From an uncultured Thermodesulfobacterium sp. (GTDB taxonomy: Bacteria > Desulfobacterota > Thermodesulfobacteria > Thermodesulfobacteriales > Thermodesulfobacteriaceae): DNA of 54,715 nt. The notes beneath the pieces were generated by a model. The model ran no database searches and was not told the DNA's origin. It was given only the letters and a program-made list of their open reading frames with translations. Both the position numbers and the translations under genes were made by a program. Positions 1 to 2,111 of this stretch are shown in pieces; position 1 is the stretch's first letter; each line of letters starts with the position of its first letter. The stretch is from positions 1-54,715 of the forward strand of contig CALLJG010000009.1 of assembly GCA_938091335.1 (NCBI GenBank), written 5' to 3'.

Positions 1-455
1 CCTTTGGTTTCAGGCTTTAGGGCGACTTCCTTGAAGATGGTTTGGTCGGCTAATGTGTTCACTTTGATCTCGCGCCGAACAAAGCCAGGTGCACTCGCAA
101 TCAAGGTGAGAGTCCCTTCTGGAAGGTTATCAAAGACGAACTTACCTTCGTTATCGGTGCGGATGGGACCCTGCTGCGTGTTAGGACCTGTGCGGATACT
201 GACAGAAGCGCCGACGATGCGCTCTTTCGTCTCAGCGTGTAGGACAACACCTTCTAAACGAGCAGTCAAGGGACCTTTTGGTGTTTCAATGGATGGGCCT
301 GATGGACGATCCCACTGGTCAAAGAGGCGCGTGGCACCTGTAAAATCAATGATGCGGAACCAGTATTTCTCAGTTGCGGGGTCTATACGGCTTCCTCGTC
401 CAATGATTTGCTTGAAAAGAATGGGGGATGAAATCGTTTTCATGAAAACGATGTT
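1..455 (-). pseudogene. In-frame continuation of the HsdR-like ORF past a TGA stop; helicase end plus carboxypeptidase-regulatory-like domain, cut by window edge
   Basis: Translating the minus strand past the TGA at 456-458 in the same frame gives an uninterrupted reading frame to the window edge. It begins NIVFMKTISSPILFKQIIGRGSR, in pieces: the usual post-motif-V segment, then motif VI (QIIGRGSR) and the IDFTGATRLF segment typical of HsdR. A proline-rich linker follows, then a beta-rich stretch (LEGVVLHAETKERIVGAS ... TDNEGKFVFDNLPEG) that looks like a carboxypeptidase regulatory-like domain (PF13620-like). No further stop appears, so the only visible lesion is one nonsense codon where homologues have a sense codon (usually Lys or Arg). 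The sequence shows the frame and the TGA; domain naming is from family knowledge; whether the TGA is real, read through, or an error is open. Confidence 0.7.
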
Positions 456-2111
456 TCAGCAAGCGGGGACATCTACACCTGTGGAAAGCAGTTCGGCGGT
501 CGTAGCCACAACGGGTGCCTTTTTGTCGGAGTCGGCAAAATCTTCCAGCCAGCGACGGGCTTCTTCGCCCTCCTCGGAGATGATGGGGACGGCGTAATTG
601 TCAAGTCCAGTCTCGGGACCAAATTCCTCTTGCAAAAGCCGTGCCACCAATCGAGCATGCTCCATGTCCACGCAGAAGACCATCGTCTTTTCCATATGCC
701 CAAAGCGCCGCAAGAGTCCAGCAAGATGCTTCACCATAGCGCGAGTGCGGTCAGGTAGCGTGATCTCGCGCTCAAATTGAGGAGTGGTGTAAATCTCTCG
801 TGGTTCTACATCTTCTGGAATGAAAACCTCTGCCCCCTGTTCGATGGCGTCTTCCAAACGAAGTCCTTCGACATCAACGGTGGTGCGCACACGATGCACC
901 TTATAGGTGGCAAGAAAGCCATCCTCTATACCTTGTCCCAGACTGTATTGAAATGCCGGTGGACGCCACATTCCCTGCGACGGGTCTTCAGGGGAAATGA
1001 ACACCTCGGGTTCCTCAGCACAGAAGTAGGCATAGGTGTCCACATTCTCGTCTTGCTTCGGCGTAGCGGTCATCCCAAGGTGAATGGCAGAAGAGAAGTG
1101 GTCCAAAATCTCGCGCCAAGTGCCCCAGCCAGAGCGATGACATTCGTCAATGATGACGAGATCAAAGAAATCCGTTGGGAACTTTTCAAAAAGGCGTTTT
1201 CCGTCTTCGTCTGGGCTCCAGAGGGTTTGATAGATGCCGAAGTATATGTCTCGGTTAAGATTGGGTGGGTGTCCCTCAATGAGATGGCGTGGGTCGCTGG
1301 TGCCAGTTGCGAATGGAGAAAAGGCGTTGTAGGCTTGATTGCGAAGCACTATGCGATCGGCTAAAAATAGCACACGAGCAGGTCGTTCAGGATGCTGTCT
1401 TTGTAGCCATCCAGATTTTAAGAGTTTCCAGACCACTTGGAATGCGACAAAGGTCTTGCCCGTTCCCGTAGCCATGGTGAGGAGAATGCGTTTTTGACCG
1501 CGCATGATTCGCAGTATAACTTCGCGAATTGCCCTTTCCTGAAAGTAGTATGGGCGCTTGCCACATTGGTTTTCAGGGCAGTAGGGGTAAAGGAGTGGGT
1601 TGGATTGCTCTTCACCGACGCTATGAGCAACGGTTACACTGTAGACTACGGGTGCTTCTCTAACCTTCCCAGCACTGGGTCGCTCCAAGCCAGTGTTCTC
1701 CTTCCAGCGTTGCCAAAGCTCCTTTGGAGTAGGAAAATTTGTCAACTCTCGGGTTGTGTGGGTGAAAAAATCGTATTCAAGAATTCGGTGACCATTAGTT
1801 GCGAAGGCAAAAGCCAGCCCAAGATCCTGAGCGTAGTGTTTGGCTTGTTCTAAGCCAGCCTCTGGCGGGCTGTCTTCTGGCTCTGCCTCCACTACGGCAA
1901 TTGGGAAACCATCAGTGTAGCGCAAGAGGTAGTCTACTATTTTGGGTTTCCCTCGCTGTGTTCTGTCTCCCACGAGGATGATCTTGCCCGGAGTGTATGG
2001 GTAGTTGGCTTTGTAGTAGAACTCCCGTGAAATCTCCTTCTCAGTCCATCCTGATGCTTTTAACTTTGGCTCAATCAACCGTGCACGGGTATCGGCTTCG
2101 TTGAGTGGCAT
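456..2111 (-). CDS. Type I restriction HsdR-like DEAD/DEAH helicase, N-terminal 551 residues (truncated by in-frame TGA)
   Basis: Resembles the restriction/translocase subunit of type I restriction-modification systems, an ATP-driven DNA translocase with an N-terminal PD-(D/E)XK nuclease. Visible parts: nuclease-like domain at about 10-120 with D60 and E75, Walker A MATGTGKT at 213-220, DEAH-type box DECH at 322-325, TATP at 348-351. The nuclease motif reads E-A-E at 75-77, so the usual catalytic lysine of ExK is a glutamate. A purine-rich ribosome site (GGGGGAGAG) lies upstream of the ATG at 2111. The ORF ends just before helicase motif VI, and the missing part continues in frame beyond the stop. 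Codon use is GC-rich, unlike everything from 2.5 kb onward. No hsdM or hsdS is inside the window; they may lie to the left. An independent role as a truncated helicase is unlikely. Confidence 0.75.
   Translation of the reverse strand: MPLNEADTRARLIEPKLKASGWTEKEISREFYYKANYPYTPGKIILVGDRTQRGKPKIVDYLLRYTDGFPIAVVEAEPEDSPPEAGLEQAKHYAQDLGLAFAFATNGHRILEYDFFTHTTRELTNFPTPKELWQRWKENTGLERPSAGKVREAPVVYSVTVAHSVGEEQSNPLLYPYCPENQCGKRPYYFQERAIREVILRIMRGQKRILLTMATGTGKTFVAFQVVWKLLKSGWLQRQHPERPARVLFLADRIVLRNQAYNAFSPFATGTSDPRHLIEGHPPNLNRDIYFGIYQTLWSPDEDGKRLFEKFPTDFFDLVIIDECHRSGWGTWREILDHFSSAIHLGMTATPKQDENVDTYAYFCAEEPEVFISPEDPSQGMWRPPAFQYSLGQGIEDGFLATYKVHRVRTTVDVEGLRLEDAIEQGAEVFIPEDVEPREIYTTPQFEREITLPDRTRAMVKHLAGLLRRFGHMEKTMVFCVDMEHARLVARLLQEEFGPETGLDNYAVPIISEEGEEARRWLEDFADSDKKAPVVATTAELLSTGVDVPAC

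Follow-up and report, generated by a model that had tools for sequence, protein, structure and literature searches.

The window analyzed here, a 54,715-nucleotide stretch from an uncultured Thermodesulfobacterium sp. that represents contig C9 in an assembly of 17 contigs and 1.39 Mb (genome G000), begins with a gene for HsdR, the R subunit of a type IB (EcoAI-family) restriction-modification system, that is interrupted by a single in-frame TGA codon. The favored interpretation (probability about 0.72) is that this hsdR was acquired horizontally, that UGA is a normal stop at codon 552, with restriction lost and methylation probably kept, and that the CarboxypepD_reg domain encoded beyond the stop is native to the protein. 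Overall, the gene is judged to be a copy, broken or mis-sequenced, of an HsdR variant that is real but little described. The relevant features, in window coordinates unless contig C11 of the same assembly is named, are the following.

456–2111, minus strand: hsdR 5' of the premature stop (551 codons, then TGA), encoding the nuclease, RecA1 and most of RecA2
1770–1955, minus strand: HSDR_N nuclease region, aa 53–114 (PF04313, E 3.8e-4, under the curated cut-off)
1881–1883, minus strand: Glu at codon 77 in place of the Lys of (D/E)xK (Lys in 58/60 relatives)
1056–1556, minus strand: ResIII/DEAD motor domain, aa 186–352 (PF04851, E 7.6e-38)
456–458, minus strand: in-frame TGA, codon 552 of the read-through frame
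1–455, minus strand: continuation in the same frame, 151 open codons to the contig end (NF046051 profile 491–541)
433–452: perfect palindrome of 20 bp close behind the TGA (the window has no longer one); 20 bp or more is reached in 17 of 1000 shuffles of the gene's synonymous codons
441–443, minus strand: in-frame ATG a few codons 3' of the TGA, a putative reinitiation start
387–416, minus strand: helicase motif VI, FKQIIGRGSR, 3' of the TGA
39–257, minus strand: CarboxypepD_reg domain, best-matching stretch of PF13620 (E 1.6e-13)
1–112: exact overlap with the end of C11 (C11:71400–71511), 112 bp shared by both contigs
C11:69285–70817, same strand as hsdR: hsdM, 510 aa, no stops, Pfam and PADLOC matches
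C11:68038–69288, same strand as hsdR: hsdS, 416 aa, no stops, Pfam and PADLOC matches

The two open segments are consecutive parts of one gene. The segment before the TGA matches positions 1–489 of the NF046051 profile (EcoAI/FtnUII HsdR; E 2.6e-147) and the segment after it matches positions 491–541, so that a single profile position falls at the TGA; over profile positions 1–541 alone, with one TGA, the read-through frame scores 564.4 bits (curated cut-off 550 bits), and by this match the product is assigned to the type IB, EcoAI-family HsdR proteins. The first-pass annotation had described a single HsdR gene broken by one in-frame TGA, with motif VI and the segment IDFTGATRLF on the far side of the break and a CarboxypepD_reg-like domain after the helicase core. 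The uninterrupted profile match bears out this description, and the post-TGA segment indeed contains FKQIIGRGSR and IDFTGATRLF followed by CarboxypepD_reg, for which PF13620 gives a score of 51.2 bits (curated cut-off 32.3).

The remainder of the gene and the rest of the operon are located on C11. Base 1 of the window is a contig end, and comparison of the 34 ends of the 17 contigs identified the 112-bp C11/C9 overlap as the sole match involving either of these two ends. The overlaps at other contig ends are longer, 137 or 141 bp, and the C11/C9 break has the appearance of an unbranched gap, for which low coverage may be responsible. C11 carries the HsdR C-terminus (NF046051 profile 578–767, 135.5 bits), by which, together with the alignment, the putative EcoEI_R_C region of the G000 protein is placed; the joined gene, with X at the stop, comprises 898 codons. 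Adjacent hsdM and hsdS genes, for which a search had been proposed at the outset, are both present and intact beyond the hsdR C-terminus, each overlapping its upstream neighbor by 4 bp. The locus is a type IB (EcoAI-family) hsdR-hsdM-hsdS operon that the assembly divides between C9 and C11. Its GC content (51.5 to 52%) is far above that of its flanks (28.6 and 30.5%) and of the genome (about 29%), which suggests that the operon was probably acquired from outside. In three genomes of the same genus, HypF was found in all three but no other tested flank gene was near it; the flanks are not syntenic, and no empty site could be demonstrated. A chimeric contig is not supported, given that both edges of the high-GC island lie inside contigs carrying low-GC host genes and that the C9/C11 join is spanned by intact relatives over their full length.

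In this genome, UGA functions as a stop. The release factor 2 gene prfB (L103, C11:34135-35178) retains the classic programmed frameshift site AGGGGGTGTCTTTGACC with its +1 shift, which senses UGA, and TGA ends 11 of the 46 long frames in the window (TAA ends 31 and TAG 4), so that a genetic code with UGA reassigned can be rejected. Recoding of this particular codon, as selenocysteine or by programmed readthrough that would yield full-length HsdR, deserves separate consideration because G000 encodes a tRNA-Sec (C1:145111-145200, anticodon tca) and a SelB protein scoring over the cut-off (C12:36019-37914), and thus can probably make selenoproteins, and because a hairpin directly follows the TGA. 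Nevertheless, this hairpin is no better than those of shuffled sequences (z -0.28; 68 of 200 at least as good), its CAUG tetraloop lacks conservation as an element, and in eight relatives inspected the underlying palindrome spans just 8 to 14 bp. A published selenoprotein screen asks for Cys homologues and for G in the apical loop (PMC1088965). None of the 60 aligned relatives has Cys at the UGA column, and the candidate selenoprotein was rejected on this count. Recoding therefore appears extremely improbable.

A regulatory function of the palindrome is only weakly indicated: the conserved FMK codons dictate its core, and in the same eight relatives it is shorter. The ATG at 441–443, which lies soon after the TGA and opens the remaining frame, raises the possibility of a two-part HsdR, with reinitiation at this codon and assembly of the fragments into a working enzyme. 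Such an arrangement is very unlikely. The break divides helicase motifs V and VI within RecA2, no purine-rich ribosome-binding site is apparent by eye before the ATG, and none of the 16 relatives that carry the CarboxypepD_reg insert is split at this site; furthermore, the Met forms part of the conserved NIVFMK motif and is a conserved residue of the protein, so that the position of the ATG is fortuitous.

With these possibilities set aside, a nonsense mutation of recent date or an error of assembly is the best reading of the TGA. The corresponding column is Lys/Arg in 57/60 relatives (35 K, 22 R), the other three having H (2) or Q (1), and all 16 insert-bearing ones have K or R; thus, intact copies with a sense codon exist. 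Apart from codon 77, the G000 protein shows no departure at columns that are at least 93% conserved among these relatives. Between G000 and the intact relative L039, pN is 0.116 before the TGA and 0.185 after it, similar to the values of 0.136 and 0.196 for the same two parts in the intact pair L039/L104 (pN is low and pS saturated on both sides of the TGA). Among eight relative-rate comparisons, one is significant, that for the pre-TGA part with L104 as the outgroup (33 changes unique to G000, 14 to L039; chi2 7.68), with chi2 of 0.33 to 3.50 in the other seven, and it reflects faster change of G000 before the stop, not after it. The otherwise sound state of the gene implies that the stop is either recent or an error, and the lack of further decay speaks against a long-dead gene.

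The same soundness, along with the intact hsdM and hsdS, is compatible with a consensus or assembly error in a gene that is in fact whole, and so is the presence, 455 bp away, of a contig end with a sub-k overlap and possibly low coverage. This explanation is rather unlikely. Stops inside hsdR are not rare: by hand count, 4 of the 60 over-cut-off hsdR matches in the phylum survey contain an in-frame stop, namely TAA in G312 and G231 and TGA in G374 and G000, so that three matches other than the present one are affected. Also against an error, no other suspicious split frame stood out in the list of same-frame neighbors that covers the window and two stretches of C11. With regard to the options originally listed for the TGA, recoding thus becomes unlikely in view of the RF2 site, the K/R column and the absence of Cys, whereas a nonsense mutation or an error is likely.

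Separately, in G096 (C68), G274 (C100) and G046 (C82), EcoAI-type hsdR matches occur in two neighboring pieces on one contig, possibly representing further broken or split R genes.

The CarboxypepD_reg domain is native to one clade of HsdR proteins and is neither debris nor a fusion artefact. The relatives came from the phylum survey of 395 genomes (a match in 248, over the cut-off in 58), from named genomes (21 examined of at least 80 loci listed) and from one viral contig. The 60-relative alignment omits seven distant loci (L046–L049 and L051–L053; 25 to 29% identity), as well as the partial L105 and L109, which show the insert; L112 duplicates L045. In each of 16 intact relatives, which were chosen because they align across the insert, it is 84 to 86 residues long and is located between the helicase core and the EcoEI_R_C domain, compared with 3 to 59 residues in the other 44 aligned sequences. 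PF13620 scores in all 16, with 13 over the cut-off (L113, L045 and L184 are under it), and EcoEI_R_C is over its cut-off in all 16; the two insert-less controls scanned, L027 and L009, showed no PF13620 match. Chance similarity is rejected by the PF13620 E-value of 1.6e-13 and by these 16 homologues, the absence of which had been named in advance as the observation that would undo the domain assignment. Among the matches listed, carriers include Bipolaricaulota, Planctomycetota and Anaerolineae genomes, a Syntrophaceae genome, a DHVE2-group archaeon, a Herpetosiphon plasmid (Chloroflexota) and Metallococcus (Actinomycetota). An insert-bearing hsdR with the start of hsdM was also observed on a contig filed as viral (L184; IMGVR_UViG_2512047085_000001, 50507-56811), one of 109 pattern-matched stretches.

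When the insert was masked, a tree of 61 sequences placed G000 and the 16 insert-bearing relatives in one group with the insert-less, long-branched L050 (support 0.999), which implies either one early gain followed by loss in L050 or an unresolved placement of the latter. The predicted structure of the intact L039 protein (mean pLDDT 81.0, pTM 0.61) contains beta strands across residues 611–692, mostly with pLDDT of 73 to 94 in ten-residue blocks. The domain is a native beta-sandwich that replaces the variable linker in this one clade, and its most likely role would be that of a structured spacer or docking element between the motor and the C-terminal anchor. No relevant paper on HsdR joined to CarboxypepD_reg was found in the open-licence PMC literature, in keeping with the first-pass view that this domain lies outside the textbook HsdR architecture.

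With the type IB EcoAI/EcoEI family (NF046051; PF08463, EcoEI_R_C), the system shares the HSDR_N-like nuclease, ResIII motor and Helicase_C domains, a putative EcoEI_R_C domain and the operon with an N6_Mtase HsdM and a two-TRD HsdS; it differs in the CarboxypepD_reg domain of about 80 aa between the motor and EcoEI_R_C, the premature TGA and an ExE nuclease motif. The closest structure, a fragment of HsdR from Vibrio vulnificus YJ016 (PDB 3h1t), is both the best sequence match to L039 (E 2.5e-132, L039 residues 1–593) and the best fold match to its model (Foldseek E 1.7e-46, 40% identity), but the match stops just short of the inserted domain, and the PDB sequence search found no entry that covers HsdR plus CarboxypepD_reg.

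The nuclease motif is the other peculiarity of this protein. It reads VVEAE (ExE) in G000, L039 and L104 and is of the VVEAK type (ExK) in the other 58 of the 60 relatives; in G000, the D and E residues and QxxxY of the D...(D/E)xK plus QxxxY signature are present and the Lys is missing, which leaves the EcoAI-family assignment unaffected. The three ExE proteins form a clade (support 0.945). Because L039 and L104 are intact and also have Glu77, the change predates the TGA, and K77E as decay arriving with the stop is rejected. BamHI cuts DNA with an ExE motif, so that Glu77 does not by itself mean that cutting is lost. The Lys of the same motif III in EcoR124I is K167, and K167A abolished cleavage and restriction there and kept translocation (PMC2602864); the natural replacement here is Lys to Glu instead. 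This leads to an alternative scenario in which a scattered, horizontally moving clade carries the transthyretin-like beta-sandwich, its ExE branch (G000, L039 and a Bipolaricaulota bacterium) may translocate without cutting, as a roadblock or remodeller, and the R gene was then stopped in G000. Such a sequence of events is doubtful, with the odds well against it.

Under the favored reading, UGA at codon 552 would terminate HsdR normally, and the truncated product would retain the nuclease region along with most of the motor, with motif VI, CarboxypepD_reg and EcoEI_R_C missing. Without these parts, neither translocation nor association with the methylase complex is expected, and restriction would be lost. 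This expectation follows from what is generally known of type I enzymes, as does continued methylation by HsdM and HsdS, which is probable given that both genes are intact. The hsdM gene also has a GGAGGTG sequence of its own upstream of its ATG. Reinitiation at the ATG at 441–443 might lessen polarity. If the TGA is real, the cell is probably restriction-minus and modification-plus.

Altogether, a premature stop in hsdR is by itself ordinary, and with hsdM and hsdS intact it is a tolerable route to the loss of a type I system. With two intact proteins among its three members, the ExE branch would provide a test of whether an R subunit of type I can be retained when the usual catalytic Lys is absent. 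The conserved extra domain indicates that a structured module is accommodated in type IB motor subunits at the very position that a variable linker occupies in other members, which makes the insert site a good place to ask how the motor couples to the methylase anchor.
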